A stretch of DNA of 36,528 nt from assembly GCA_025055235.1 (NCBI GenBank), contig JANWYN010000063.1, positions 1 through 36,528 of the forward strand. The letters are read 5' to 3'. This document shows, piece by piece, positions 13,784-28,958 of this stretch. The DNA is from Candidatus Roseilinea sp. (lineage in GTDB: Bacteria; Chloroflexota; Anaerolineae; J036; Brachytrichaceae). The position numbers and the translations under genes are program-made. Every line of letters begins with the position of its first letter. Position 1 is the stretch's first letter. Under the pieces are notes generated by a model, which was given only the letters and a program-made list of their open reading frames with translations, made no database searches and was not told the origin of the DNA.

Positions 13784-15820
13784 ATGAACTGGACTCGTTC
13801 GATCCGCTGGCTGGCCGGCGCGCTCCTGGTTGCAATATCGCTCGCCATCGCCGTTCCTGCGCCCAGGACAACGTATGCGCAGGGCCAACAGCCGCCTGCC
13901 CAACCCGCGCCAACGCCGGTGCCTATCCCCCCGCCTGCCCGCAAAATTGCACTGCCGCCCGGCACGTTCAACATCGCCTTGCTAGGCGTTGATAAGCGGC
14001 CGGATCGCGGCTTCTTGAACACCGATGTCATCATCATCGCCAGCGTCAACCCCGATGTGCCGATCGTCACCCTGCTCTCGATCCCGCGCGATACGCAAGT
14101 CTATATCCCCGGCGTCGGCATGAAGAAGGTCAACCAGGCCTACGCCTTCGGCGGCCCGGATCTCTTCAAAGAGACCATTCGCTACAACTTCGGCCTAGAC
14201 GTCGCCAACTACGCGATGGTCAACTTCGCCGGACTGGTGCGCGCCGTGGATGCGCTGGGCGGCGTGGATGTGATCGCCACCTGCCCGATCCAGCACAACT
14301 TCCCGCGCGATCCGTATTACATGGGCGGCAGCATCGTGGCGAAGGACTACGTGGACACGTTCACCGGCGAGGTGTGGCCGGCCGGCTCGCGCGTGCCGCT
14401 GCTGCGCATAGACCTGCCGAAGCCCGGCGTGTATCGCCTGAACGGCTTGCAGGCGCTGGCCTACGTGCGGGCGCGCTACAACATCCCCGGCGGCGACGTG
14501 GATCGCGGCCGGCGCGAGCAACGCGTCGTGCGCGCGTTGTTGGCCAAAGCGCGCCAGGTCGGCTCGCTCACCAAGCTGACCGAGCTCTACAACGCCGTGC
14601 GCAACGACGTCGAAACCGACTTGACGCTGGAGAGCATCCTGCGCTACGCGATGATGATTGACAAGATCGGCGACGCCGTGGTGCGCAGCCGCTACCTGAT
14701 GGGCTACGACGCCAGCGGCGCAGCGCTGGAGGGCGCGCCGAGCAACTGGAACAATCGGCTGGACTACATCCAGAAAGCCTTGAACGTCGCGCTTAACCAG
14801 CGCATCAACGACGGCATCCCGATCGAGGTGCTGGATGGCATCGGCGATCCGGGCTTCGTGCTCGCGGCAGCGGATCGGTTGAAGGAGCTGGGCTTCGTGG
14901 TGACCGCTATCAAGCCAGCCGGCCAGCGCTATGCACGCACGACGGTGATCAATCACATGACCACGAGGAAGGGCAGCGCGCTGCCGCTCCTGATGCGTAC
15001 GTTCAACATCAATCAGAAGAACGTCGTCTCCGAGCCGAACCCGAACGGGCCGCGTTTCACCGTCATCGTCGGGCCGGATTTCAACACGTGCTACTACGCC
15101 AAGTCGCTGGCGGCTACGGGCAGCCAGCCGATCAAACCACAAGAGGTGGCTTCAGAGGACGCGTTGCAACCGCTACAGACCTCGGTCGTGGTCACCGACA
15201 CCGCGCACATCGAACAAGCAGTCGTCGAGTCGCTCAACCAAACTGCCGTCGTGGTCACCGCAACGGCGCTGCTTGATCCGGTGGCTGCAGCCACGACCCC
15301 GCTGGCGCCGCCGGAGGTCGCGCCGCCCACCTTCCTGGTGCCGCTGGGCGACGTCGTCAACATCCGCAGCGCGCCGACCGTGCGTTCGCGCAGCCTGGGC
15401 CAGTTGCGCGGCGGGTTCAGCAGCGAGATCCTGGGCCGCAGCGTGGACGGCAACTGGCTGCAGTTCCGGATGCCGCGCAGCGGCCGGCTGGCCTGGGTGA
15501 ACAAGAACGTCGTGCAGGTCAAGGGCTACTTCCAGGAGATGGCTGCGGCAGGTGACGAGGCGCAAGCCCAGTCGCCGCTGAATCCCGACCTGCCGCGGAT
15601 CGTCATCCCGGCCGGCAGTGTGGTGAATGTGCGCAGTGGCCCGGGCGTGAACTTCGACATCTTGGGCCGGATGCGCGCGCGCCAATCGGCGCCGATCATC
15701 GGGCGCAGCGCCAACGGCGCGTGGTGGCAGATCGAATTCGACGGTCAGCCGGCGTGGATCTCGGCGCGCTACGTGCGCACGACGGGCAACGCCGGCAGCG
15801 TCCCGACGACGGGGCAATGA
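13784..15820 (+). CDS. LytR-CpsA-Psr (LCP) family protein with LytR_C and two SH3b domains
   Basis: The 678-residue envelope protein has an N-terminal membrane anchor or signal (residues 8-33), a Pro-rich linker and an LCP domain (about 60-290). The catalytic signature is present: FNIALLGVDKR, D81, SIPRDTQVYIPG with R102, NQAYAFGG and the RARYNIPGGDVDRGRREQR block (~229-247). LCP enzymes transfer lipid-linked glycopolymers onto peptidoglycan or surface proteins. A LytR_C-like part follows (IPIEVLDGIGDPGFVLAAADRL), then two SH3b domains at about 518-585 and 605-670 (VVNIRSAPT, VVNVRSGPG), probable wall-binding modules. SH3b additions on LCP proteins are unusual outside this kind of lineage. 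The gene converges with the STAND regulator only 4 bp after its stop. Confidence 0.93.
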   Translation: MNWTRSIRWLAGALLVAISLAIAVPAPRTTYAQGQQPPAQPAPTPVPIPPPARKIALPPGTFNIALLGVDKRPDRGFLNTDVIIIASVNPDVPIVTLLSIPRDTQVYIPGVGMKKVNQAYAFGGPDLFKETIRYNFGLDVANYAMVNFAGLVRAVDALGGVDVIATCPIQHNFPRDPYYMGGSIVAKDYVDTFTGEVWPAGSRVPLLRIDLPKPGVYRLNGLQALAYVRARYNIPGGDVDRGRREQRVVRALLAKARQVGSLTKLTELYNAVRNDVETDLTLESILRYAMMIDKIGDAVVRSRYLMGYDASGAALEGAPSNWNNRLDYIQKALNVALNQRINDGIPIEVLDGIGDPGFVLAAADRLKELGFVVTAIKPAGQRYARTTVINHMTTRKGSALPLLMRTFNINQKNVVSEPNPNGPRFTVIVGPDFNTCYYAKSLAATGSQPIKPQEVASEDALQPLQTSVVVTDTAHIEQAVVESLNQTAVVVTATALLDPVAAATTPLAPPEVAPPTFLVPLGDVVNIRSAPTVRSRSLGQLRGGFSSEILGRSVDGNWLQFRMPRSGRLAWVNKNVVQVKGYFQEMAAAGDEAQAQSPLNPDLPRIVIPAGSVVNVRSGPGVNFDILGRMRARQSAPIIGRSANGAWWQIEFDGQPAWISARYVRTTGNAGSVPTTGQ

Positions 15821-15824
15821 CCAA

Positions 15825-18545
15825 TCACACTAGGCCGGCCTCGGCCATTAGCCGCCTCGTCGCCTCGACCTCGTGTTCTAGCTTCATGCTTTCGTAGAGC
15901 GCGAGCGCTTGGGCGAAAGCATCCATGGCTGCGCTGCGCTGTCCCTGGTCGAGATGGACGATGGCAAGCCAGCGCCAGGCGGGCGCTTCGCCCATTGGAT
16001 CCCGCAACTCCTCGGAACGAGCGGCGCGAATTGCCATTTCGAAGTATTCCTGCGCTTTGGCATGCTGCCGGCGTTGGCGCGCGATCATCCCCAGCACGGC
16101 GAAGGCATAGGGCACGGATTGGCTCACCTCCAGTTCGAAGACGCGCGCTGCATAGCTTTCGGCTTTGTCGAGTTGTCCCAAGTAGGCGCATGCTTCAGCC
16201 GCGTTCGCCAAGAGGCTGGCAGTCACGCGCTGCGAGCTGATGCGTTTGGCCAAGGCCAAGCCGGCCTCCGCCTGCGCTAGCGCCTCTTCATGTCGCCCGG
16301 CCACGATCAGCGCTGCGGACAGCATGGAATAGTCGAACAGCAGCCGATATTGCTCTCCGCGCGCCCGCTCGATGGCCATGGACTTTTCGATCAATGGAAT
16401 CGCTTCGTCTGGCCTGCCGCGCTGCCACAGCAGCTCGGCCAAACGGGCGTAGAACGTGCTCAGCGACCTGTGGTTGCCCGGCACACTGTCGGCAATGGGT
16501 CTGGCCGTGTTGTAGTGCGCTAGGGCCGCATCGAAGTCCCCTCGGATAAGCGCTGCTTGGGCATAGGCGGAGTATGCGTTGATCAGCGCCAGCTTCGCTT
16601 CGCTCTCAGCCTTGTCTGCGTCGCGCAGGTGCTTGTCGTACATGTAGCTTAGTTGGGCGTGCTGGTAGGACACGGCCCGCTCAGGTTCCACCTGATAGGC
16701 TTCGATCGCTTGGCGATAGTGATGGATCGCGCGCTCAGGTTGATCGAGCAACTCGTAGGCGTCGCCCAGCAGCCGCTCGATGAACGCCCGCATCGCAGCG
16801 CTCGATCCGGGTTCGGCTTGCTCCATTTCGCGGGCTGCCGATGCGCCATCGCCAAGGATGAGGCTGAGCTGGCCACGGAATGCGCGCAGCGCATTTCGGT
16901 TTTCGACCTCATCGAGGTCGCCGATGTTGATGCGGTCGAGCAGTGTTTTGACGGACGCAGCCTGGCCGCGCGCGATCTCAGCGCTCGAATGCGCAGCCCA
17001 CAGGCGCAGCGCCTGGTCAGGCCTGCGTGCCTCGATGAAGTGCTCGATGGCTGCCACGTATTCACCGTGTGCTTCGCGCACCAGCGCCGCCTTCGCATGA
17101 TGCGCGATGCGCTCCTCGCCCGTCATGCGCGCCAACACGAAGGGCCGAAAGTGCGGCGTTAACTCCACGCCGCCGGCGTCGTCCTGGCGCGCCAGGCCGC
17201 GCGCGATCAGGCTGTCCAGTACGTCTGCCTGGCCTATCCAGGCATGCTGAGGTGAAGGCGCGCGAAAGACGGCCAATTGCTTGAGCAAGATGCGCTCCTC
17301 ATCCGGCAGGCGCTCCCACAGGTAGCCGAACATCTGCTCGATAGACGGGCTCTCGGCATAGCGCGACAGCGCATCAGACGCGCTCGTTCCCGTCTGGCAA
17401 AGGCTGATCAGCAGACACAGCAGGATGGGATTACCATCGGTGATCTGCCAAGCGCGCTGTTGCTCGTCCGGCGTGAACGCGCCGGGCAGTGCCGCTTCGA
17501 GCATTTGCCCGACTTGCTCGCGCGACATGCCGGGCAGGGTATATAGCCGGTCGGTCTTGATGAGCGGGCGCTGGCCGATGACGAGCAGGTGCGCTGTGTG
17601 ATACAAGTCGGCCAGCAAATTGGCGATCTCTCTGTGCTCGCGCCGGTCCAGATGGAGCAGATCAGCCTCATCCAGGACGATCAACAAACGTTCCCCGGCC
17701 AGTTCGCCTAAATCGTGTCGCAGCACACCGATAAGGGGCGCTCGGCGCAGTGGCCCGTGCCCGGCGTCGGCTGCTGCTTGTCGCCATGTGTTCGGCGCGC
17801 CGTTCAACCGAAGGAAATAGGCCATCGCGAAGATGAAGCTGGCCAGCCAGTCGTTCCAGCCGGCGCGCAGGGTGTACCAGAAGACCCGTTCGCCGGCATA
17901 GGCTTGGGCGTGCCGCTGTTGCCACGCCAACGCGACGGCAGCGCCGACGGTGGTCTTGCCGATGCCGGCTGCGCCGGCCAGGCTGACCGAGTAGCCCTCG
18001 CTCAAATCGGCCAGCACACGACTGACCAAATCCTCGCGGCCGACCATCGGTCGGCGCACCGGTCGTTCGGCGCGCAGGGGCGGCAAGACGAGATCGGCGA
18101 AGGCGCGTGCCAGCTTCTCGGCGGCGATGGGCCACTGGCGATACAAACTACGGCGCGCTAAGCCCACGTCCAGGGCGATGTCATCGTCGCGATCGCCGGG
18201 GACGCGCTCGAAGAACGATCGGTGAATCAGCGTGCGCGTGAAGTCATCAAGCGCATCGGTTGCGCGCAGCAGTTCGGCGCGCAGGGCGCGGCCGCGGGCC
18301 TCGGGTGTGTCGCCCTGGATGTGGCGCCCCAGCACGTAGGGCGCAGCCAGGAAGGAGCGCTCGCCGATGCAGCGGTCAATGACGCGTTGGCGTTCGTTCG
18401 GTTGGATCGGTTGCCTGCGACCTCTGCCGAACACTCCCGTGCCGGCGATCATGCGCAGCACGCGCATCACTTCCTGGGCGAACGCATCGCTGCCCAAGTC
18501 GTGCGCGCTCGACTGAGACGGATCGCGTCTAAGCTTGCCTGTCAT
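15825..18545 (-). CDS. STAND-type ATPase with N-terminal HTH-like region and C-terminal TPR array
   Basis: The 906-residue protein looks like a signal-responsive regulator. Residues ~80-150 end in DIALDVGLARRSLYRQW, which has the look of a helix-turn-helix recognition region. A P-loop NTPase domain follows the linker RPMVGREDLVSRVL: Walker A GAAGIGKTT (191-199), Walker B LLIVLDEADLL, and a QRPLIKTDRLYTLPGMSREQ sensor region. From about residue 450 the chain is a helical repeat array with many TPR-like pairs (for example LLGDAYELLDQPERAIHHYR, LANAAEACAYLGQLDKAESYA). Known STAND proteins switch between ADP-bound closed and ATP-bound oligomeric states on ligand binding to the repeats. It lies head to head with the lipoprotein-metalloprotease pair, which it might control (inference); ligand and targets are unknown. 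The 265-bp divergent gap (18546-18810) contains no other gene. Confidence 0.88.
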   Translation of the reverse strand: MTGKLRRDPSQSSAHDLGSDAFAQEVMRVLRMIAGTGVFGRGRRQPIQPNERQRVIDRCIGERSFLAAPYVLGRHIQGDTPEARGRALRAELLRATDALDDFTRTLIHRSFFERVPGDRDDDIALDVGLARRSLYRQWPIAAEKLARAFADLVLPPLRAERPVRRPMVGREDLVSRVLADLSEGYSVSLAGAAGIGKTTVGAAVALAWQQRHAQAYAGERVFWYTLRAGWNDWLASFIFAMAYFLRLNGAPNTWRQAAADAGHGPLRRAPLIGVLRHDLGELAGERLLIVLDEADLLHLDRREHREIANLLADLYHTAHLLVIGQRPLIKTDRLYTLPGMSREQVGQMLEAALPGAFTPDEQQRAWQITDGNPILLCLLISLCQTGTSASDALSRYAESPSIEQMFGYLWERLPDEERILLKQLAVFRAPSPQHAWIGQADVLDSLIARGLARQDDAGGVELTPHFRPFVLARMTGEERIAHHAKAALVREAHGEYVAAIEHFIEARRPDQALRLWAAHSSAEIARGQAASVKTLLDRINIGDLDEVENRNALRAFRGQLSLILGDGASAAREMEQAEPGSSAAMRAFIERLLGDAYELLDQPERAIHHYRQAIEAYQVEPERAVSYQHAQLSYMYDKHLRDADKAESEAKLALINAYSAYAQAALIRGDFDAALAHYNTARPIADSVPGNHRSLSTFYARLAELLWQRGRPDEAIPLIEKSMAIERARGEQYRLLFDYSMLSAALIVAGRHEEALAQAEAGLALAKRISSQRVTASLLANAAEACAYLGQLDKAESYAARVFELEVSQSVPYAFAVLGMIARQRRQHAKAQEYFEMAIRAARSEELRDPMGEAPAWRWLAIVHLDQGQRSAAMDAFAQALALYESMKLEHEVEATRRLMAEAGLV

Positions 18546-18810
18546 GATGCGTATGCCATGGCGCGCGTGAGCGACGCCGGGCGCATGTGGGTAAGGAGGA
18601 GTGTACTCGCTGACGAGAAAAACACTTGCGTCGGCAGTGCGTTCCGCCGAAGGTGCGTCTGCGCCAGACTGTCACACAAGTGCGTGCATTTGGCGCACAG
18701 TGCGGGCGGCGATCTTTAAGATCAATAGAGTAGCAGCGCAACTCGCCCTGCGAGCTGGTGTTCTGCATATCAAGCGCGTCGCGAGGAAATCAATACTCAA
18801 GGGGGTCGCC

Positions 18811-19974
18811 ATGAACAAATTGCGTGCGACATCCGGTATCATGTTCGTCGCAACATTGTTATTGAGTGGGTGCGCGTTGCCACCGGCGCCGCCAACGAGC
18901 ACAGGTGTAGTTGTCACCAGAGTCACTCTAAGCAGAAAAGCCGCCCCAGAACAAACGGCGACGCCTCTGCCGCATTTAACGGACGAAGAGAGGCTCCGCA
19001 TCGCGTGCAGATCATTGGCTAATTTGGTCGCTCCGTCAAGCGAGGAAGTGTATTACTGGCGAATGAATATGAACTTCAACCCATACAATCTCGCTTGTCT
19101 GGAAGTACGCCGGAAGGATCAACTGGACACCCCGAAACGTTTTGTTATTGGGTGTTCACAAGGTGGCACCCCGGCACGTCGATCCACAATTCCTGTAGAT
19201 GTTCCGATTCCATCACTGCCTGCTGCTGGCGGACCAACACCAACGCCCATTGCTGCGCCGGTCGTGACACCAAGCGCTGGATATTATCTAGAATGTCCGC
19301 TCAATATACGCTGGTATCTAGAAGAAACTCGAAAAGATCCCATATTCGCTAACGTAATCACGCAAACTGCTAGTGTCTACACCTATACCTATTTCTCGAT
19401 GAGTGCTCTGGTCGTGTTGCCAACTGCAATGCCTTATCGCGGACTGATTGCTGCAGTCGTGCCCATTACAAATTCTGTATCAGGAGCAACAACGCCATGC
19501 ACTAGTGACTTTGTAGAATGCCAGCCGTCATTATGGGGTGTTGTATCACCTACGGTGTCTACATTTCGACTGGCAAGTGTTTACAACGGTCAATTTATCC
19601 ACATCACCCCTCCGATCAAATACACTCTCGGCATTCAGGGTTGGTGGACCGGTGTGCGAGATCGCAGAAGTGCCTACGCTGAGAAGCCAGAAGATGAGGT
19701 GATTCGAGCACAAGCTTCATTTCTGGTGGACAATTCAGGATATGTGTCGGACTTAGGTTTATGGCAACAGCACAACACTGTAACGTTCAATCGCGATTTT
19801 GCGGTTGATTCGCGCAGGCGCTTCAAGTTCTGGGCAGGAGATGTAAAAGTCTACATTGGGGGTGTTCCACCTGAGTATTGCGCCTCTTTAGCTACGTGTG
19901 ATTCGTTTAACGGCAGCTTACTTGAAGTCTTCATTGACCCAGGCGGCACCGGAAAGCCTGACAACATGGGTTGA
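18811..19974 (+). CDS. Secreted lipoprotein of unknown function
   Basis: I do not recognise a family. The 387-residue protein has a clean lipoprotein signal: basic MNKLR, a hydrophobic stretch and lipobox LLSGC with C21. A low-complexity Pro/Thr region (PTSTGVVV, TPIAAPVVTP) alternates with a beta-rich body having several cysteine pairs. The open frame extends upstream to 18601, but AAGGGGG at 18799-18805 and the signal peptide fix the start at 18811. Base composition is clearly more A/T-rich than the flanking genes, as in the rest of the block to 26528. It probably forms an operon with the metalloprotease, 40 bp downstream. The gene order lipoprotein-protease suggests that both act at the cell surface, though the protease has no obvious export signal. 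Confidence 0.8.
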   Translation: MNKLRATSGIMFVATLLLSGCALPPAPPTSTGVVVTRVTLSRKAAPEQTATPLPHLTDEERLRIACRSLANLVAPSSEEVYYWRMNMNFNPYNLACLEVRRKDQLDTPKRFVIGCSQGGTPARRSTIPVDVPIPSLPAAGGPTPTPIAAPVVTPSAGYYLECPLNIRWYLEETRKDPIFANVITQTASVYTYTYFSMSALVVLPTAMPYRGLIAAVVPITNSVSGATTPCTSDFVECQPSLWGVVSPTVSTFRLASVYNGQFIHITPPIKYTLGIQGWWTGVRDRRSAYAEKPEDEVIRAQASFLVDNSGYVSDLGLWQQHNTVTFNRDFAVDSRRRFKFWAGDVKVYIGGVPPEYCASLATCDSFNGSLLEVFIDPGGTGKPDNMG

Positions 19975-20014
19975 TCTTAACCAAGTCTCTAAGCTGACAA
20001 TCTGGAGGAAAGCA

Positions 20015-20650
20015 ATGTCCGACAACAATTGCTCTGACAACTGGATTTCACAGCAGACTGATGAGATTCACCCGCCTCCATGTTCCTGGGAAGGTGAACC
20101 GAAGCTTACCTACTCATTCGACGGGGAAGGCTGGACACCAGATTACCGAAAAGCAGTGGAGCAAGCATTCGAGTGCTGGGAAGCAGCCTTCGACAAGCTG
20201 TGTCATCAAGTTGCTCAATGTAGGCGCGTGTCATTCACCGAGGTGGACTTGCAACAACCAACGGTGCCGACACATATCTCAATCAAGTTCGTTGACCCAA
20301 GCACAAAAGTTTGTGAGGAACTGAAAGATCGTCAGGCGCACACCGACTATCCTCCTTACTGTGCGTGTAGAAAAAATAAAGAGAGCACCTGTATTCCACT
20401 CTATTTCAACAACAAGTATGAGTGGTCGCATGAACCGAAAGAGAATCACTACGATCTGTTCACCGTTGCTTTGCATGAGATTGGACATATTGTCGGACTA
20501 ACCCACATAGATATAGGGAATGATGATAAAAAGCGTGATCGCGTCATGTGCAATCCCCCGCCCATTGGTAAGAGACCCTTTACCGAGGTGACTAAATACG
20601 ATATTGATGACCTGAAACCGCTATACGGTACCCGATCTGAAGAAGATTGA
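20015..20650 (+). CDS. Matrixin-like zinc metalloprotease (metzincin)
   Basis: The 211-residue protein is close to a bare catalytic domain. It carries the extended zinc motif HEIGHIVGLTH at 154-164 (ligands H154, H158, H164, catalytic E155), a possible Met-turn at M178 (RVMCNPPP), and the matrixin-style ending YDIDDLKPLYG (195-205). The N-terminal part (LTYSFDGEGWTPDYRKAVEQAFECWEAAF) matches the first strand and helix of the fold. The start is set by GGAGGAA at 20004-20010; an upstream open frame overlaps the lipoprotein gene and is unlikely. Oddities: there is no signal peptide or propeptide with a cysteine switch, yet there are ten cysteines, more than expected for a cytosolic protein. It follows the lipoprotein gene by 40 bp. 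Confidence 0.86.
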   Translation: MSDNNCSDNWISQQTDEIHPPPCSWEGEPKLTYSFDGEGWTPDYRKAVEQAFECWEAAFDKLCHQVAQCRRVSFTEVDLQQPTVPTHISIKFVDPSTKVCEELKDRQAHTDYPPYCACRKNKESTCIPLYFNNKYEWSHEPKENHYDLFTVALHEIGHIVGLTHIDIGNDDKKRDRVMCNPPPIGKRPFTEVTKYDIDDLKPLYGTRSEED

Positions 20651-21189
20651 ATTTAATAGATGCTTTTATATTCTCAGGGTGAACGCGGAAAAGCTCAGCG
20701 AGTGGCCTAGCTAGCATAGCGATTCTCCTCAGGTTGCCTTCGCCAGCAGGGACAAGCGTGGCAGGTTAGATGATAGAGCACGCTCTCCGCAGCGCGCTAT
20801 CGCCAATGCATCGTCGGCACGGAACGGCGCCTGCCGTGCGACATTTTTGCCCCTATCCGCGAATGCACCCCTCCCCTCACTCCGCTACGGTGTTTTGTTT
20901 GGTGCAATAGACGTTGCGCACGGGTAGCATCGCGCACGCCGGCCAGCGCCACGTTCCCCGGCAGACCGCGCAATCATTCCCCGCGACTCAAAGTCGTGAG
21001 CAACCTTAAGGCAAAGTTCGCCTCGGCGGACTCGACCGCCGGTCGCCAAGGACAGCTTTGCTCCGTTTGTTTGTCACAAAAACGCGCATGTGTGGCACAC
21101 CGCCCAGCCCGCACTGCCTAATATTTCAGTTGCAGTTCGCGAACCTGCAATGACACCCGTCCGATTCAATTCAAGTGAGGTGAACAACC
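20651..21189. other. Intergenic region with a degraded repeat copy E
   Basis: No convincing gene is seen in these 539 bp. At about 20980-21050 lies a decayed, reversed copy of the ~110-bp repeat (CCGCGACTCAAAGTCGTGAG, then GGCAAAGTTCGCCTCGGCGG). Composition changes from A/T-rich to G/C-rich near 20750 and then back, so the segment may be a junction of older insertions. A TAATAT at 21119-21124 could be a -10 element for the peptide gene, without a matching -35. Confidence 0.5.
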
Positions 21190-21303
21190 ATGAAGACGAA
21201 TGCGAAGACCAAGATCAAGGCTGCTGTGGCCCTCGGGCTGGCCATCCTGGGCGCCGTGCTGATCGCCGCGCCGGCGAATGCGGGGATCCGGGTGCGCCCG
21301 TAG
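21190..21303 (+). CDS. 37-residue secreted micro-peptide, predicted mature product GIRVRP
   Basis: A short reading frame with a good ribosome binding site (GAGGTG at 21177-21182) encodes a textbook Sec signal peptide. The N-terminal region MKTNAKTKIK is basic, the core AAVALGLAILGAVLIAA is hydrophobic, and PANA (residues 28-31) gives an A-x-A cleavage site. Cleavage there leaves only the hexapeptide GIRVRP before TAG. Two readings are possible: a genuine peptide precursor (a pheromone or signal, as known for short peptides in Firmicutes), or the 5' remnant of a decayed secreted protein. The 3' side does not continue the frame; it holds a perfect 15-bp hairpin and then the membrane protein gene 100 bp downstream. 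I rate coding as likely and function as unknown. Confidence 0.6.
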   Translation: MKTNAKTKIKAAVALGLAILGAVLIAAPANAGIRVRP

Positions 21304-21316
21304 GCTGCCGGTTCGC

Positions 21317-21359
21317 GCGCCGTCGCAGCCCGGCACAAGGGGGAGGGCTGCGACGGCGC
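21317..21359 (+). promoter_or_regulatory. Perfect 15-bp stem-loop after the micro-peptide gene
   Basis: GCGCCGTCGCAGCCC (21317-21331) pairs without mismatch with GGGCTGCGACGGCGC (21345-21359) around a 13-nt loop. It starts 14 nt after the peptide stop and ends 45 nt before the next ATG. No T-run follows, so it is not a standard terminator; it could be an attenuator, an mRNA 3' stabiliser or a processing site. Confidence 0.75.
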
Positions 21360-21403
21360 TGCCTGGGCAGCATTGCGTTGCTTGCAGTTCAAGGAGGAGA
21401 GTC

Positions 21404-21892
21404 ATGGAGGATATAGCATTTTTTGTAGTGCAGTGGCTTGTCGTGCCCTGCATCATGATCGCACTGTTTATCTACGCTAGAGCAATCGTCAGAGCGTTGA
21501 GTGAAAGGGAATCGAAGACATCAGCAAATGCAGGCTTTTGGGCGGGGCTAATCATTTTAGCCATCTTTGTAATCAGTCAACTAGACGCGATTCGCAATTT
21601 CCAGTTTAGTCACGACGAATTACAGGAGTTGCTGGTGCTTCCGATGATGCTTGGAGCAATTGTCGGCTTCGTGTTCATGCACCTCGTGAGACTCGTAATT
21701 CCTACTCGCCTTGTTGGTCTTTTGACTTTGGTGTTATCAGCCACCAGCAGTTCCGCGCTGTTCTCGTATGTGTTCATGAACAACTTGCGAGTCATCCTAC
21801 TGCACGGCACTCTAGGCATTGCTTTGGGCAGCCTGTTGTACATTGTTCTCTTCCCGGCGGCGATGCGAAGCATTAACAAGATGGTAGGTTGA
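21404..21892 (+). CDS. Small integral membrane protein of unknown function
   Basis: The 162-residue protein has about five hydrophobic segments: near residues 5-25 (FFVVQWLVVPCIMIALFIYA), 45-60 (FWAGLIILAIFVISQL), 78-98 (LPMMLGAIVGFVFMHLVRLV), 100-120 and 130-152 (LLHGTLGIALGSLLYIVLFP). Only short charged loops connect them (RALSERESKTSANAG, QFSHDELQEL). No family is recognised. The start is fixed by AAGGAGGAG at 21391-21399. Its position directly after the secreted micro-peptide and its hairpin suggests co-transcription; a role in export of, response to or immunity against that peptide is possible but speculative. Confidence 0.75.
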   Translation: MEDIAFFVVQWLVVPCIMIALFIYARAIVRALSERESKTSANAGFWAGLIILAIFVISQLDAIRNFQFSHDELQELLVLPMMLGAIVGFVFMHLVRLVIPTRLVGLLTLVLSATSSSALFSYVFMNNLRVILLHGTLGIALGSLLYIVLFPAAMRSINKMVG

Positions 21893-22288
21893 AGGCTTTT
21901 ACGACGGCTCGTGTCTCAATATGCCTTCAGCTGACGCTGCTTCGTTGCACAGCGCGACTGATACATGAGCCGTTGTTACCTGCGCGCCTACGTGCTCACG
22001 GCGCGGGTCTGGCGCTACGTAGCGGTGATGCACAGCCGGATCGAGCGCGAGCTGCGCCATGACCTGACTACCCAGGAGCGGTGGAGGCTATTAATTCTAA
22101 AGGTTTTCAACTGAGCATTTTGATATCAGTATTTCACCTGCCTTTAGCTCCCAGGTGGGTCTGCTGAAGATTATGGAGCTTGCGCACATGACAACCAAGA
22201 GTTCAGGAAACTTAAAAATCAACCGATAAGCACAGTTGAGCCAAGTTCACATATCGTAAACGCAACAGAGGGGGAAGTTTCAACTACT
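21893..22288. other. Intergenic region with a possible gene fragment
   Basis: This 396-bp gap has one G/C-rich island (about 21965-22090) that looks coding, flanked by A/T-rich sequence. A reading frame at 21965-22114 would give a 49-residue basic peptide beginning MSRCYLRAYVLTARVWRY and ending in RWRLLILKVFN, with no ribosome binding site. I do not recognise it; it may be the remnant of a lost gene. Nothing else is seen, apart from a GAGGGGG at 22269-22275 that is 13 nt from the next start. Confidence 0.3.
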
Positions 22289-24904
22289 ATGGCCATTGCA
22301 AAACTTCGACGAGAATCTTTAGAGCTTTCTCGAGATAACCACTTCTGTGCATGGTCACTGTTCTGGCTCGCACAGTCTATAGGCATCGGACTGATTTTGT
22401 CCACGTTGATTCACAGGCCGCTATTACACACCGCAGTAGGCTGTCTGTACACCGCAGTAGGCTGCTTGTATCTTGGACATATTCTGATTGGAATCTTTAT
22501 CGTAAGTCTGTTAGTAGTGATCGTAGCCTGTATTTACTGTTTCACCGACATTTTTAACGAGATTCGCTCGTCACTGGCCTTGAGAAGGTTTGCGTTGTTA
22601 TTTCTCCTTCTTGTCCTTCTCATCTTTATTTATTTTGCTATTGCGCACCGCATCACCCCTGATTTGGCTTCGCTAGCAATCGGAGCCATCTTTCTTGCCG
22701 TGGCATGGCTGGTAATTCTCGTCGGAGGCGCTAGAGGAGCACTGGTAATCATCATCCTTAGCTCACTTGCCGGTCTTGGCCTGATAATCATCTTGTTCAA
22801 ATCCGACACTACTAGTAGTTCCCGACTGCTTACAGGCGTGGGTGGCTGGTTCCTCATTGGCCTGTCATTGACCTTCATCACTCTTGTCGGCTGGCACTCG
22901 ATTACTTTCCGTGAATTCGCCCTCAGCGTATCACGAATTGTTGGGCAATTCGTGCGTATCGGACGCTCGAATATCTTTCGGTTTCTGCTGCTGCTTGCCG
23001 TTGTTGGCTGGATTTACCTATGGGTCTCAAGATTGCGGAGCAGCGAAGAAATCAAGCCGGCAGAAGCCAGCGCTTTGGCGTCAATAGAAGTCGCAAAGGC
23101 TCGAGCTACTGCGGCCAGTTCACAAATCACTGCTGAAGCAACAAAGTCCAAGGCTGCGCTTGTGATCCAGCAAGCTCAAGTCACGGCAACACACGCCGCA
23201 GCAGATCGGGCTGCTGCTCTGGAGCTTACAAAAGCTGCAGCCACAGCGGCTGCCCCGATAGTAAAAGCGACGATGGAGCTTCCGATCCAGCAAGCTGAAA
23301 TCAAGATAACATTCGCCGCAACGAATCAAGCTGCTGCTCTAGAGCTTACAAAAGCCGCAGCCACAGCGGCCGCCCCGATAGTAAAAGCGACAATGGAGCT
23401 TCCGATTCAGCAAGCTCAAATCACGGCAACACGCGCTGCAGCGGATCAGGCTGCTCTAGAGCTTACAAAAGCCGCAGCTACAGCAGCCGTTCCGATCGTA
23501 ACAGCGACGATGGAGCTTCCCATTCGGGAAGCTGAAATTTCAGCAACAGCAAAGTCTGTGGAGATTCGAACCACAGCAGGTCTTCCGATAGTTGCACTAG
23601 GAACACTGCAGGCAACTTCAGAGCCGGCAGCCGACTCGACAGATGCATTGACCCAGATTCGCGACCATTTACGTTATATTGGCTCCAACAATCGTTGGCG
23701 GAATATACTCCTGATCACGCTTGCCCTGTGGCTCGCTATATTCATATGGAGACTCCGCAAGAGACCAGTCATTGACAAATTCGAAGACTACATGGGTGAG
23801 AGCAATTCGAAGCCAGTAGAGGGAGCAGGCAGTATCTTGCGATCAGAACTCGCACGGCTGGGTCGCCTGTTTCACGATATTGATGAAGCACGTCCGCAAC
23901 CTGTAACCGGCCCACTACAGCCACTGGACATTGCACCTGCGGCATTTACTGCCGAGTCTCTTGTCAAAGAAGCACTGGGGGAAGACAGCAAGGTCGAGAT
24001 AGGTACACTCTCAATCCCTATCGGCAAAGTTGCAAGCCTGATTGCCAGGCTTGTGCAGGGTCGCCGGCTCACCGGCAGCGTTCACAAAGACGATCAGCGC
24101 TTCGTCATGATCACCGCCGGCGGGAGCGGCCGCGTAGACTACAACTGGCGTGTTGAATACCCGAAAGAGAAAACAGATTCGAACATCACTTCCGCAATAC
24201 AAGCGATGTCTTCGGAGATGGCTATCCGCATCTTTACCGACCTGCTTTCGGACTCTATCGGCACGCCGAAATGGAACGCAGCTCAGGAATATTCCGAGGG
24301 GTTACGCAAGCTGCGATATGCACTGCGGAAGAGCGACAACGATAAAGAATGGTACCGGCAGGCCATTCAACACTTCACCAAGGCAATTGCTCTCGATCAA
24401 GAATTCGGCTACGCGCACTTCAACCTCGGAGTGGTGTACCGAAAGCTCGGTGATCAGCGCGCAGCCGAGAGGGCATTCGCACGTGCCGTTCACAGTGAGC
24501 CATCCAATATCGAGTTTGCCTACGCGCTCGCGCTCACCCATTATGAACTTGAGCAATACGAAGTGTGCGAAGTCTGGTGTACTGCTGCAATCAATCGAAA
24601 GCCCACCGTTGCGAAAGTGTGGCTCTTGCGCGGCCTGGCTCGCCACATGATAGCCAACCGGAAGAACGTTGATGAACATCGCTATCCAAGAGATCCCCGT
24701 CCTGAAAGTATTCGAGACTTTCAGATGGCTACGGCGCTCTCTTGGCAAAGCCTGTGCTGGGCTACAGCAACTGCCCGACCGAACAAAGAAGTGCAAATGA
24801 GACGCGTTGAGGCTTCAGAGTGTACGCGCGACCTCGCGACGGCCAGATTCTTTGAGGAAGATGAGAAGCTTCGAACGCCTCAACCCGGCTCATCGCAAAA
24901 CTAA
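22289..24904 (+). CDS. Large membrane protein with Ala-rich coiled-coil repeats and TPR domain
   Basis: No known family covers the whole 871-residue chain. Residues 1-~250 hold seven or eight membrane segments (for example LILSTLIHRPLL, IGIFIVSLLVVIVACIYCF, FALLFLLLVLLIFIYFAIA, LLLLAVVGWIYLWV). A helical Ala/Glu/Thr-rich section (~255-440) contains three 40-residue repeats beginning QQAQ/QQAE and ending KATMELPI. One further membrane helix (~470-490, NILLITLALWLAIFIWRL) leads to a soluble C-terminal half. That half includes a domain around SLVKEALGEDSKVEIG...RLTGSVHKDD and TPR units near 690-800 (YAHFNLGVVYRKLGDQRAAERAFARA). The topology places the coiled coil and the TPR domain on opposite sides or makes a hairpin through the membrane, as in a scaffold or sensor. 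It precedes another TPR protein with a 37-bp gap. Confidence 0.78.
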   Translation: MAIAKLRRESLELSRDNHFCAWSLFWLAQSIGIGLILSTLIHRPLLHTAVGCLYTAVGCLYLGHILIGIFIVSLLVVIVACIYCFTDIFNEIRSSLALRRFALLFLLLVLLIFIYFAIAHRITPDLASLAIGAIFLAVAWLVILVGGARGALVIIILSSLAGLGLIIILFKSDTTSSSRLLTGVGGWFLIGLSLTFITLVGWHSITFREFALSVSRIVGQFVRIGRSNIFRFLLLLAVVGWIYLWVSRLRSSEEIKPAEASALASIEVAKARATAASSQITAEATKSKAALVIQQAQVTATHAAADRAAALELTKAAATAAAPIVKATMELPIQQAEIKITFAATNQAAALELTKAAATAAAPIVKATMELPIQQAQITATRAAADQAALELTKAAATAAVPIVTATMELPIREAEISATAKSVEIRTTAGLPIVALGTLQATSEPAADSTDALTQIRDHLRYIGSNNRWRNILLITLALWLAIFIWRLRKRPVIDKFEDYMGESNSKPVEGAGSILRSELARLGRLFHDIDEARPQPVTGPLQPLDIAPAAFTAESLVKEALGEDSKVEIGTLSIPIGKVASLIARLVQGRRLTGSVHKDDQRFVMITAGGSGRVDYNWRVEYPKEKTDSNITSAIQAMSSEMAIRIFTDLLSDSIGTPKWNAAQEYSEGLRKLRYALRKSDNDKEWYRQAIQHFTKAIALDQEFGYAHFNLGVVYRKLGDQRAAERAFARAVHSEPSNIEFAYALALTHYELEQYEVCEVWCTAAINRKPTVAKVWLLRGLARHMIANRKNVDEHRYPRDPRPESIRDFQMATALSWQSLCWATATARPNKEVQMRRVEASECTRDLATARFFEEDEKLRTPQPGSSQN
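23168..23524 (+). repeat. Three in-frame 120-bp tandem repeats inside the membrane protein gene
   Basis: Units start at 23168, 23288 and 23408, with a fourth partial start at 23525 (one codon shorter). Each encodes QQAQ/E...AAALELTKAAATAAAP... KATMELPI. Nucleotide identity among the units is high, so the duplication is recent and could vary in copy number between strains. Confidence 0.85.
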
Positions 24905-24941
24905 TCTCCCAAAAACGGTCTTCCCAACCCTGAGAGCAAAC

Positions 24942-26528
24942 ATGGCTAACGATTACGCTTTACCCAGGGCGCTTTACGATCAGGCGCAACAACTTAATGG
25001 CTCTATGCTGATCTTGGCCATCTCGTATGCCAACGTTCTATTCGGAGCAGGAAGGACGAAAGAGGCAGACGAGAGTTTCAAAACTGCGCTTTTGGGCGCC
25101 GATACGCCGATTGATAAAGCAATGATTTGGCTGAACTTGGCGTTTATTTCGCGAGGAAGCGAAAAAGAACAATTGCTTATTAATGAATTTAGGAAGTCCA
25201 AAGCAGCGTTAAGTGAAGATGAAAGGTGGGAGCTCGCAAAAAGATTCAGAGTAGATTTGTGTGATGACCGGGATTGCTCGAAAGCTGGTAAGAATTACGC
25301 AGATCGAGCTAAATATGCGAAGGATAAGTGTGGATCAAAACCTGCTGAAAATTACGAAGAGCACAAAAAACGCGAGATCAACCTCTGCCAATCTGAAGCT
25401 GCCAACTTTATTCAGGAGCAACAGTACGATGCCGCCATCGCTAAAGCGTTAAAAGGAATAGAAACTGATCCGGACGCAACTGGGCTCTGGAAGGTCCTGG
25501 CAAAAGCGCACCTTTGCCAAGCTACCCGAACGGATGACAAAGAGAAACGCAAGCAGATACGCCAAACCTTGGTATCTTGGATGAATGTGCTATCAGAACA
25601 TCCGCCATCCAACAATGATGATCTTGGATGGATGCATTATGAGTTAGGCAATGCATACTTCTTACTCAATGAATACGACAAAGCAAGTAAACATCTCATA
25701 CTTGCCGAAAGCAAATATCGGGGTGCCGAGAGTAGTGATGGTGACACCAAAGGTGAATGGCTTGAGACCAAAGTCAAGCAGCTCGAAGTTTACTGGCACA
25801 CAGGCGCATGTGATGAAATCGAGAGGACGTTCCGGGATGTCGAGAGGACGTTCCCGAATATCAAGGGAGCTCTTGAGGGGGAGTCAAGAATCATCGCACA
25901 GCTCAGCTTTAGCCGCGCACAGCTCATCTATGCGTTCGCGCTTGCAACTCGAGCTTACCTCTCACACAGTAAGCAAATGTTTGAGGATGCAAGGAATGTA
26001 GTAGAAAAGCTTTCGTCTAGCGTACGAGGTCACGACGAACTGGAGGCTCTGACTGAGATATGCAAGGGCCAGATCGAGCTCGGCAGGTATCATCTCAAGA
26101 GCGACAGCGATGATTCCGGTGATAAACCCTTGGATCATCTCAAGAATGCAGCTAATTCCTTTCGTGCATCGCTTCAACATCAAATGCACCCGCTCGCATT
26201 TCTGTATCTCGCGCAGACTCACAAAGCATGGGCTGAGCATTACCAGACTAACAACGTAAAAAAGTCCAAGCACATATCGCGCGCGAAAGAAGCAATCCGG
26301 AAGGCAAATCAGGTTGATCTGGATGACAGGTATAAAAACCAGATAGCTGACCTTGAGGCAGAGCTAAAGGCTCTAGAAGAGGATAGTAGTCAGAACAGAT
26401 CACAGCCATCTACAGATAAAACCCCATCGGGAGCAACTCGAACAACTACAGCAAATAGGCCAGATGAATCAACTCGCAAACCGAGTGAAGATACCGGGAA
26501 CGCGGGATCGAAAGGCGAAATTACCTAG
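24942..26528 (+). CDS. TPR-repeat protein of unknown function
   Basis: The 528-residue protein is predicted to be soluble, without signal or membrane segments. It is made of helical repeats of TPR type, for example LILAISYANVLFGAGRTKEADESFKTAL near the N-terminus and MHYELGNAYFLLNEYDKASKHL in the middle. A charged, Ser/Thr/Pro-rich disordered tail follows (DSSQNRSQPSTDKTPSGATR). The frame opens at 24807, overlapping the previous gene; I prefer ATG 24942 (MANDYALP) with GAGAG five bases before it. ATG 24861 is an alternative. It probably works with the membrane TPR protein just upstream, since both share A/T-rich composition and a tight spacing. TPRs mediate protein contacts; the partner is unknown. 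Confidence 0.8.
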   Translation: MANDYALPRALYDQAQQLNGSMLILAISYANVLFGAGRTKEADESFKTALLGADTPIDKAMIWLNLAFISRGSEKEQLLINEFRKSKAALSEDERWELAKRFRVDLCDDRDCSKAGKNYADRAKYAKDKCGSKPAENYEEHKKREINLCQSEAANFIQEQQYDAAIAKALKGIETDPDATGLWKVLAKAHLCQATRTDDKEKRKQIRQTLVSWMNVLSEHPPSNNDDLGWMHYELGNAYFLLNEYDKASKHLILAESKYRGAESSDGDTKGEWLETKVKQLEVYWHTGACDEIERTFRDVERTFPNIKGALEGESRIIAQLSFSRAQLIYAFALATRAYLSHSKQMFEDARNVVEKLSSSVRGHDELEALTEICKGQIELGRYHLKSDSDDSGDKPLDHLKNAANSFRASLQHQMHPLAFLYLAQTHKAWAEHYQTNNVKKSKHISRAKEAIRKANQVDLDDRYKNQIADLEAELKALEEDSSQNRSQPSTDKTPSGATRTTTANRPDESTRKPSEDTGNAGSKGEIT

Positions 26529-26826
26529 AAGTAAAGTGAGACTTCACCATTCGATCATATTAGGAGAGATGTTGTGGTTGGCGCATTGCGCACCAGCCAA
26601 AAAGTAAAGACTTGTTATGTCCTTACGCTCTCTACCTCTGACGCCACCCAAACGTAGATGAGCGGCATAAGCACTTCCGCCAACAATCCATGTATCTAGG
26701 CTCATGCTCTACCGGTATCAAGTTTGGGAAGAGACTGGGGGCTTGTCATGCAGCTTCGGAGAGATGCAAGCGCTAGCGGTGTAGCACTCAGCACAGTGAT
26801 CCATGCGGCCTGTGTCCCACTGCCAC
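26529..26826. other. Intergenic region at the end of the A/T-rich block
   Basis: No gene, repeat or terminator is recognised in these 298 bp. Composition returns to the G/C-rich background at its right end, where the convergent M42 peptidase gene stops. It marks the right edge of the accessory block. Confidence 0.5.
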
Positions 26827-27921
26827 CTAACTCGGAATAAACCCCGTCTCTTCCCTCACCTCCCTCACAAACGCTGCGATCAGCTTCGCGGCGTTTTCGA
26901 CGTCGCTCAGGGCGATCATCTCGTTCGGCGAGTGCATGTAGCGGTTGGGGATGGAGATGATGCCGGTCGCCACGCCGCCGCGCGAGAGGTGAATCGCGTC
27001 GGCGTCCGTGCCGGTGGTGCGCGGGTTGGCCTCGACCGCATACGGGATGCCCTCGCGCTCGGCCAGGCCGACCAGCATGTCGAACACCACCGGGCTGCCC
27101 GCCGACCCGCGCGAGATTACCGGCCCGCCGCCCAGCTTCACGTCGCCGGAGCGGCGCTTGTTCGCGTCCGGGTGGTCGGTGGCGTGGGTCACGTCCACCA
27201 CGATGGCCGCCTGCGGCGCGAACGAAAAGGCCGAGGTGTGCGCGCCGGCGAAGGTGATCTCCTCCTGCACCGTCGCCACCGCGGCGACCGTCGCGGCCGG
27301 GCGCGCCTGTGCATCCTTTCGCCCTTCGACGCGCTCAGGGCTCAGGATGCGCAACGCCTCGAGCACGGTGAACGCGCCGATGCGGTTGTCAATGCTGCGC
27401 GAGACGATGCGCCCGTTGGGAAAGTCATACACCGGCGCGTCAATCACGCCGGTCGTGCCGACCCGCACGTGCGCCAGCGCCTCATCGCGGTTCTTCGCGC
27501 CGATGTCAATCCACAAATCCTCGATCTTGCTGGCCTTGTCGCGCTCGTCCGGCTTCATCAGGTGGATGGCCTTCTTGCCGACCACGCCGATCACGTCGCC
27601 CTGCTTGCCGAGCAGCCGTACACGCTGGCCCACCAGCACCTGCGCATCCCAACCGCCGATCGGCGCGAACCACAGATAGCCCTCGTCATCCACGTGGGTA
27701 ATCATCAGGCCGATCTCGTCAATATGGCCGGCCAGCAGCACGCGCGGCGCGCCTTCGACGCCGTTCAATATGGCATAGGAGTTGCCACGCACGTCGGCGC
27801 GCACCTCGTCGGCGAAGGTCTTGGCTTCTTCGCGCCAGACGCGCGCCGGGCCGGCTTCGTCGCCCGATGGGCCGGGCGTGCTGAGCAATCGCTTGAGGAA
27901 TTCGATGGAGCGCTCGTTCAT
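26827..27921 (-). CDS. M42 family metallo-aminopeptidase with an in-frame repeat insertion
   Basis: The 364-residue cytosolic enzyme belongs to peptidase family M42 (glutamyl/tetrahedral aminopeptidases, FrvX/CelM), which form dodecamers and trim peptides. All ligand positions are visible: AGHIDEIG with H66, SIDNRIG with bridging D178, VQEEI with E220/E221, VVDVTHATD with D243, and YMHSPNE with the last His. Residues ~193-206 (SPERVEGRKDAQAR) interrupt the segment between EALRIL and the AAVATVQEE strand. The DNA there is a hairpin repeat (27311-27350), so the loop was enlarged by a mobile palindrome without breaking the frame. The start has GATAAT 8 nt upstream and no ribosome binding site. 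Confidence 0.94.
   Translation of the reverse strand: MNERSIEFLKRLLSTPGPSGDEAGPARVWREEAKTFADEVRADVRGNSYAILNGVEGAPRVLLAGHIDEIGLMITHVDDEGYLWFAPIGGWDAQVLVGQRVRLLGKQGDVIGVVGKKAIHLMKPDERDKASKIEDLWIDIGAKNRDEALAHVRVGTTGVIDAPVYDFPNGRIVSRSIDNRIGAFTVLEALRILSPERVEGRKDAQARPAATVAAVATVQEEITFAGAHTSAFSFAPQAAIVVDVTHATDHPDANKRRSGDVKLGGGPVISRGSAGSPVVFDMLVGLAEREGIPYAVEANPRTTGTDADAIHLSRGGVATGIISIPNRYMHSPNEMIALSDVENAAKLIAAFVREVREETGFIPS
27311..27350. repeat. Palindromic repeat embedded in the M42 peptidase gene
   Basis: GCATCCT (27311-27317) and AGGATGC (27344-27350) form the outer stem, with CCCT/AGGG inside and TCGACGCGCTC as loop. The core CCCTTCGACGCGCTCAGGG is typical of dispersed intergenic repeats in related genomes (from memory). 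Here it is read in frame as SPERVEGRKDAQ. Confidence 0.75.
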
Positions 27922-27929
27922 GACAGGCG

Positions 27930-27935
27930 ATTATC
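27930..27935 (-). promoter_or_regulatory. -10 box of the M42 peptidase gene
   Basis: GATAAT on the minus strand lies 8 nt before the ATG at 27921, another short-leader or leaderless arrangement. No -35 is evident. Confidence 0.45.
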
Positions 27936-28000
27936 CATGATATTCAACGCCTGGCGCGATACAGGGATCGCGCCCTACGTGGTTCGTTTGCTCGGCACGT

Positions 28001-28006
28001 TAAAAT
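28001..28006 (+). promoter_or_regulatory. -10 box of the SGNH lipoprotein gene
   Basis: TAAAAT is 7 nt before the GTG start at 28014. There is no ribosome binding site between them. Confidence 0.45.
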
Positions 28007-28013
28007 CGCGTGC

Positions 28014-28958
28014 GTGAACGCGAAAGCTGTCTTCACGGCAATGGCCGGCGCGCTGCTGGTGGCGTGCGCGCCGGTGCAGGACGCCGGCCGGAACCCGCCG
28101 CGCCCTGCGCCGCCAGTCTTCGGCCGGTTCGACCCGAACACCACGCGCGACATTGACGTGGACGCCCTGCCGGTGCTGCCGGAGATCACGCCGGCGATGG
28201 TGGAATCGCTGCGCGCGATCTACCGGGCCGGCCTGGCCAAGGGCAACAACCCGCGCGTGTTCGCCAAGCTCGGCGACTGCATGACCGAGAACGATCACTT
28301 CTTGGTCCCGCTCAGCGCCGGGCGCTACGAGCTGGGTGACTACGCGGCGCTCAAACCGACGCTCGAACACTTCCTGGGCGTGCCGGCGCGGGCCAACGGC
28401 GGCCGGCCATGGGACAAGGACTCGTTCGCCACCATCGGCTTGGCGTCGGCCGGCGGCTTCAACGTGGCTGGCCCGCTCGACCCGACGTGGTCGAACCCCG
28501 AATGGTGCGCCGCCGACGAGTCGCCGCTGCAGTGCGAGTTTCGCGTCTCGAAGCCGGCCTTCGCCATCGTCATGTTCGGCACCAACGACGTGAACACCAC
28601 CGACCTGGCGACCTACGACTTCTACCTGCGCACCATCATCAGCCAGACGCTGGACGCCGGCGTGATCCCGATTCTGAACACCTTCCCTACGCGGCCGGAG
28701 AACCCCGCCAAGACCCGCCAGCTCAACCAGATCGTGGTGAAGGTGGCGCAGGACTACGGCGTGCCGCTGGTGAACCTGAACCGCGCGCTGGCCGCCTTGC
28801 CCCACCAGGGCGTGGATCCGAAGGACACGACGCACCTGACCGTGCCGCCGGACGGGCGCGTGGACATCTTCTCGGGCGAGCATCTGCAGTATGGCTTCAC
28901 CGTGCGTAACTTAGTGACGCTGCAGGCGCTCGACGCGGTGTTGAGGGCGGTTAGATAG
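28014..28958 (+). CDS. SGNH/GDSL hydrolase-like lipoprotein with Cys at the nucleophile position
   Basis: The 314-residue protein begins with a lipoprotein signal (lipobox LVAC, C18; GTG start) and carries an SGNH-like domain from about residue 80 to the end. Block I reads KLGDCMTEN: G87, D88, and C89 where Ser is expected. Block III is FGTND with N191. A C-terminal DTTH (271-274) could supply the Asp-His pair. A related domain forms the C-terminus of the protein at 29534-31009: both share GNYAYL/GDYAAL, a SPL(E/Q)CE(Y/F)..(R/K)P segment and an LQYG(Y/F)..RNL(T/V) ending. Family enzymes hydrolyse esters of lipids or glycans; with Cys replacing Ser, activity may be altered or lost. Surface location is supported by the lipobox. 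Confidence 0.82.
   Translation: MNAKAVFTAMAGALLVACAPVQDAGRNPPRPAPPVFGRFDPNTTRDIDVDALPVLPEITPAMVESLRAIYRAGLAKGNNPRVFAKLGDCMTENDHFLVPLSAGRYELGDYAALKPTLEHFLGVPARANGGRPWDKDSFATIGLASAGGFNVAGPLDPTWSNPEWCAADESPLQCEFRVSKPAFAIVMFGTNDVNTTDLATYDFYLRTIISQTLDAGVIPILNTFPTRPENPAKTRQLNQIVVKVAQDYGVPLVNLNRALAALPHQGVDPKDTTHLTVPPDGRVDIFSGEHLQYGFTVRNLVTLQALDAVLRAVR

Follow-up and report, generated by a model that had tools for sequence, protein, structure and literature searches.

The window analysed here, a stretch of 36,528 nt from a Candidatus Roseilinea genome, raises the question of whether a very short open reading frame, followed by a strong hairpin and then by the gene of a small membrane protein, is a gene in its own right, and if so what becomes of its product. 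The frame, hereafter the minigene, lies on the plus strand at 21190..21303; it opens with ATG, encodes 37 residues (MKTNAKTKIKAAVALGLAILGAVLIAAPANAGIRVRP) and ends with TAG, and the region upstream of its ATG (21173..21189, plus strand) carries GAGGTGA, a 7-nt match to the Shine-Dalgarno consensus as it is generally known. Regarding its product, a reading by eye gives a lysine-rich start, then a hydrophobic core, which is also picked up by a home-made signal-peptide filter, and then an A-N-A box, beyond which the residues GIRVRP are left. The earlier note had described a 38-codon frame with a good ribosome binding site, made up almost entirely of a signal peptide with six residues past A-N-A; the frame and its ribosome binding site are as described, and the product has the anatomy of a Sec signal peptide, judged by eye.

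As for the coding signal, codon usage was scored with a model trained on long ORFs of the same genome. With ORFs taken from their longest starts, the minigene ranked first among the 702 small ORFs that 436 kb contain beyond the predicted genes, and again among 1637 in 1.18 Mb; this pool had already lost, as predicted genes, the ORFs of at least 60 residues scoring at least 12, and some of the small ORFs ranked sit within low-GC insertion ORFs, since the gene caller misses these. Scored from an inner start, another small ORF (L076) reaches 13.7, against 12.3 for the minigene. None of 2225 stop-free base shuffles attained the score of the minigene, which amounts to +0.331 per codon with a GC3 of 0.89; the 5-95% range of 309 predicted host genes is 0.12-0.37, whereas five low-GC ORFs of the surrounding insertion score from -0.13 to -0.29 per codon. 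Read-through or frameshifting into a longer gene was rejected because the 96 nt 3' of the stop carry no coding signal in any of the three forward frames (-0.5, -18.7 and -8.1). When a Shine-Dalgarno site, a signal-peptide-like sequence and an A-x-A box were required together, a filter devised post hoc, after the minigene was known, the minigene was the sole ORF retained in 436 kb, and none was retained in 40 shuffles; a less strict one let through 22 rows over 1.18 Mb versus 7.4 per shuffle, several of these rows being alternative starts of one frame. A small coding frame of secretory type is supported by its Shine-Dalgarno site, its signal-peptide anatomy and its codon usage.

The hairpin that follows (21317..21359, plus strand) begins 13 nt past the stop of the minigene, and its arms, 21317-21331 and 21345-21359, pair at 15 of 15 positions around a 13-nt loop, confirming the mismatch-free 15-bp stem-loop noted before. 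The RNA fold of 21295-21400 has -57.9 kcal/mol, whereas shuffles average -49.3 (z -2.5) and 5 out of 200 are as stable, with an outer stem that extends back as far as the stop codon, and arms of at least 15 bp did not occur in 20 shuffles of the window. Hairpins of this kind are common in the host genome: with a minimum arm length of 10 bp and loops of 3-20, 400 kb of it contain 74 perfect hairpins, in nine of which the arms reach 15 bp or more, while 200 kb of shuffled sequence contain five, all of 10 bp. A census of 436 kb, restricted to perfect hairpins whose arms reach 11 bp or more, returned 53, with overlapping hairpins counted separately and some of them simple-repeat hairpins; 24 lie at most 60 nt past a predicted stop, 4 at 61-150 nt past one, 12 within genes and 13 elsewhere, the last group including the hairpin studied here because the minigene is absent from the predicted gene set. 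Hairpins of short repeated words, of the types GAGATTGG, GAATTGAGAA and GGTAACTAGTAA, were also seen at four other loci of the genome (L083, L088, L084 and L070), several of them near predicted gene ends.

The stable, G+C-rich stem-loop shortly after a stop agrees with what is expected of a classical intrinsic terminator. Directly 3' of the stem there is no T-run (the tail reads TGCCTGGGCA), and a terminator scan makes no call there; among the 24 stop-proximal hairpins of the genome, TTTT occurs within 12 nt past the stem, on the strand of the gene, in 4. According to PMC8355165, poly-U is not required for termination in all bacteria, and the gene-end hairpins without U-tract discussed there likewise have a strong stem close past the stop and no T-run; they differ from the hairpin of the minigene in that termination here is a prediction. 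Its simplest role is probably to close the minigene's own transcript at the 3' end. Across the whole window, no Rfam family reaches its gathering score. A match of mir-6644 to the minus strand of the hairpin (29.9 bits with a cut-off of 82, E 6e-4, in a scan at E <= 1) was taken as a generic-hairpin match. On the 5' side, a near-palindrome (TTGCAGTTCGCGAACCTGCAA, 21130..21150) ends 39 nt before the ATG; this 21-mer occurs once in 436 kb and its core, GTTCGCGAAC, twice, and it is a possible operator. The promoter and terminator scan gave no promoter-like site near the minigene.

Downstream, the gene start of the membrane protein lies 44 nt past the hairpin. The ORF (21404..21892, plus strand) encodes 162 aa, among which the Kyte-Doolittle scale marks five hydrophobic stretches of 19 residues, in keeping with the small multi-pass membrane protein announced in the earlier note. 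A second open frame, 21278-21892, runs from an ATG within the minigene into the membrane protein and would give 204 aa; it has no coding signal before 21404, so that the 162-aa start is preferred. All Pfam matches of the protein are below cut-off, the best being SpoIIM (17.4 bits versus 26.9), and PADLOC, NCBIfam and PHROGs offer no family for it. A search of 60 genomes at E <= 0.01 gave matches in 3, its own included, the other two being G014 (6e-25), the one clear relative, and G050 (4e-4); short partial matches also turned up twice in genome contigs from other phyla, while no relative was confirmed in viral contigs and none was found in plasmids.

Both genes lie within about 11 kb of DNA (15821..26826, approximate edges drawn from congener comparison) between a LytR-CpsA-Psr family gene on the left (13784-15820) and an M42 aminopeptidase gene on the right (26827-27921, minus strand). 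These flanking genes adjoin in all eight congeners, with the flank matches ~20-35 nt apart in seven of them and ~0.84 kb apart in G004, and none has the ~11 kb at that site, so that the stretch is an insertion here. Its content is a NACHT-TPR protein, a lipoprotein-like ORF, a matrixin-like protein, the minigene, the membrane protein and two TPR ORFs; relatives of the matrixin-like protein and of the 573-aa TPR ORF were each found in 1 of 149 genomes at E <= 1e-8, namely their own, and the stretch 21880-22290 has no second copy in the genome. The insertion is mostly low in GC, and the minigene forms with its upstream DNA a GC-richer, host-like patch. Two host-type interspersed repeats, detected by own-genome matches, belong to this patch, at 20771-20875 and 20950-21062; at E <= 5.2e-6, and with 40 of 244 candidates scored, the genome holds another 39 partial matches to them, and partial copies of these repeat families also occur in the congener G006. 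At the right edge, a plus-strand ORF (26803-28017) was discarded as the shadow of the minus-strand M42 gene, since its frame is broken by stops in 7 of 8 congeners and the M42 protein is 80-91% identical in all eight. Elsewhere in the genome, on contig C53, the locus L109 (10939-11367, plus strand) holds a thioredoxin-like lipoprotein frame with TGA at the expected first Cys of CxxC (FYAPW-TGA-GSC), open over 142 residues if TGA is read as selenocysteine; it is a candidate selenoprotein. The genome carries SelB above the family cut-off (323 versus 242 bits), and Rfam gave no match in support of a SECIS element for the frame.

Homologues of the minigene were sought in three overlapping samples, each including its own genome: one of 99 relatives, one of 396 genomes from the class and one of 400 from the phylum. 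In its own genome, the peptide finds itself alone at E <= 10. Among the relatives, matches at E <= 1 occur in 21 of 99 genomes, its own included; none of the 22 non-self rows is below E 0.059, and 21 fall within open frames of at least 116 residues, the only short-frame match being one of 42 residues on the minus strand of a contig of G013 (L004). Matches at E <= 0.1 occur in 12 of the 396 class genomes, and at E <= 0.02 in 3 of the 400 phylum genomes, its own included in both counts. Over the three samples, the non-self matches listed have E 0.006 or worse and lie mostly in long ORFs; because E-values are calculated per genome, such values are expected by chance across hundreds of genomes. 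The match at E 0.006 (L140, from G621, same phylum) was not counted, as about 2.6 such are expected over 400 genomes; taken by itself, L140 (1501-1632, plus strand) is a 43-aa frame, MKALALIIILVGSVLVVAPASAGIRPVRSLRSRSSGSVCAWAC, that is signal-peptide-like with AGIR. A pattern for the GIRVRP tail was found in 3 of 396 genomes, its own included, and the other two occurrences (L049 and L050) are not in signal-peptide frames; NCBIfam and PHROGs contain no family for the minigene. On these comparisons, none of the matches in the 99-, 396- and 400-genome samples can be trusted as a homologue. The earlier note had proposed that a peptide frame lacking conservation should be given up, and a trustworthy relative is indeed lacking, but detection is difficult for a hydrophobic query of 37 residues, and fast-evolving relatives could be missed.

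The reading that best accommodates these data is that of a free-standing small coding sequence with its own Shine-Dalgarno site, encoding a Sec-exported peptide and found in one genome so far, to which a probability of about one half is assigned. The position of the hairpin, 13 nt past the stop, speaks for it, being the usual place of long hairpins in this genome; against it stand the missing homologue, the hairpin without a direct T-run, passed over by the terminator scan, and the host-like GC-rich patch in a low-GC insert, which makes a remnant plausible. The main rival is indeed that the frame is a 5' remnant: a larger gene for a secreted protein would have kept its signal peptide and lost its body as the insertion was assembled, a nearby stop and the old gene-end hairpin closing what was left. 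The mosaic of a host-like patch and interspersed repeats within low-GC DNA makes such a deletion a serious contender, a signal peptide with six residues is what it would be expected to leave, and the want of homologues suits it as well; however, the 96 nt past the stop carry no coding signal, a search of the genome at E <= 10 gave no longer gene whose signal peptide matches, the eight congeners give only weak matches (E 0.39 and 0.51, in G001 and G006), and both the start and the gene-end hairpin are present, so that this origin is judged possible though doubtful.

Two other explanations look to the membrane. In form, the nearest analogue of the minigene is TimP of Salmonella, which PMC7667032 describes as a free-standing small ORF of 38 aa with an N-terminal Sec signal sequence, conserved in enterobacteria and paired with the sRNA TimR; length and anatomy are alike, and the minigene product could act in the same manner on the membrane of its own cell, perhaps restrained by an antisense RNA. 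This is unlikely, since TimP, according to the same source, has Leu at -3 and is uncleaved, while A-N-A favours cleavage; moreover, no trustworthy relatives of the minigene were found, and the searches gave neither an antisense RNA gene nor an Rfam family at gathering score, with the proviso that novel RNAs could escape Rfam. The succession of a short frame, a hairpin and, 44 nt on, a gene start could also denote a leader peptide whose attenuator-type hairpin controls the membrane-protein gene, a quite improbable arrangement given that the minigene has host-like codon usage versus the low-GC usage of the next gene and that its hairpin has no T-run. In G014, the relative of the membrane protein has no such minigene-like frame in the 214 upstream bases available (39% GC; by eye and tblastn), which is weak evidence, against this reading and the signalling one alike, because the minigene starts exactly 214 bases before its own neighbour. 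The last reading to be weighed is the signalling role that the earlier note had put forward, and which found no support here: no relative can be trusted, the minigene has no TPR neighbour and its hairpin is of a common kind. RRNPP pairs, as delimited in PMC10075063, consist of a small propeptide (10-100 aa), predicted by SignalP to be exported via Sec, directly beside a TPR receptor of 250-500 aa. The minigene falls in this size range with its 37 aa, and its anatomy, assessed by eye and with the home-made filter, fits Sec export; like RRNPP propeptides, including the arbitrium peptide AimP (PMC10075063, PMC6458997), it would be a short propeptide of Sec type that ends in a short C-terminal tail, here six residues, as in the arbitrium hexapeptide (PMC6458997). 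In contrast to them, it has no family relatives, and its direct neighbours are the 250-aa matrixin-like protein and the 162-aa membrane protein, both devoid of TPR hits; the three TPR proteins of the insertion (871, 573 and 906 aa) lie further off, none adjacent to the minigene. An RRNPP-like signal read by one of them is very improbable, and equally so is its fullest version, in which GIRVRP would be a hexapeptide secreted as the signal of an insertion-borne system outside Firmicutes, read by a large TPR or NACHT-TPR protein. Titles and abstract openings retrieved for RRNPP with signal peptide, peptide pheromones and autoinducing peptides in Chloroflexi/Chloroflexota contained nothing relevant.

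Returning to the free-standing minigene, it would be translated from its own Shine-Dalgarno site and its peptide would be exported via Sec; signal peptidase I would probably cut past A-N-A, so that GIRVRP is released, or the short peptide may instead stay at the membrane. The hairpin would most likely terminate or protect the minigene transcript and thereby set the membrane-protein gene apart. Among known small genes, it resembles the unconserved small bacterial ORFs (cf. the smORF catalogue, PMC11364881) in being short, gene-like and unconserved, and it differs from them by an unusually clean Shine-Dalgarno site, its signal-peptide anatomy and its end hairpin; as a gene it may be young, or dispensable.

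In conclusion, with a frame, a Shine-Dalgarno site, signal-peptide anatomy, host-like codon usage, a hairpin and the insertion context all present in the DNA, the locus is a credible orphan secretory minigene with predicted export, placed in a genome-specific insertion. The signalling reading, if true, would matter much more, and the evidence gives it little weight. If translated, the minigene would be a clean case of an orphan secretory gene borne by a genome-specific insertion, of the kind that annotation tends to skip.
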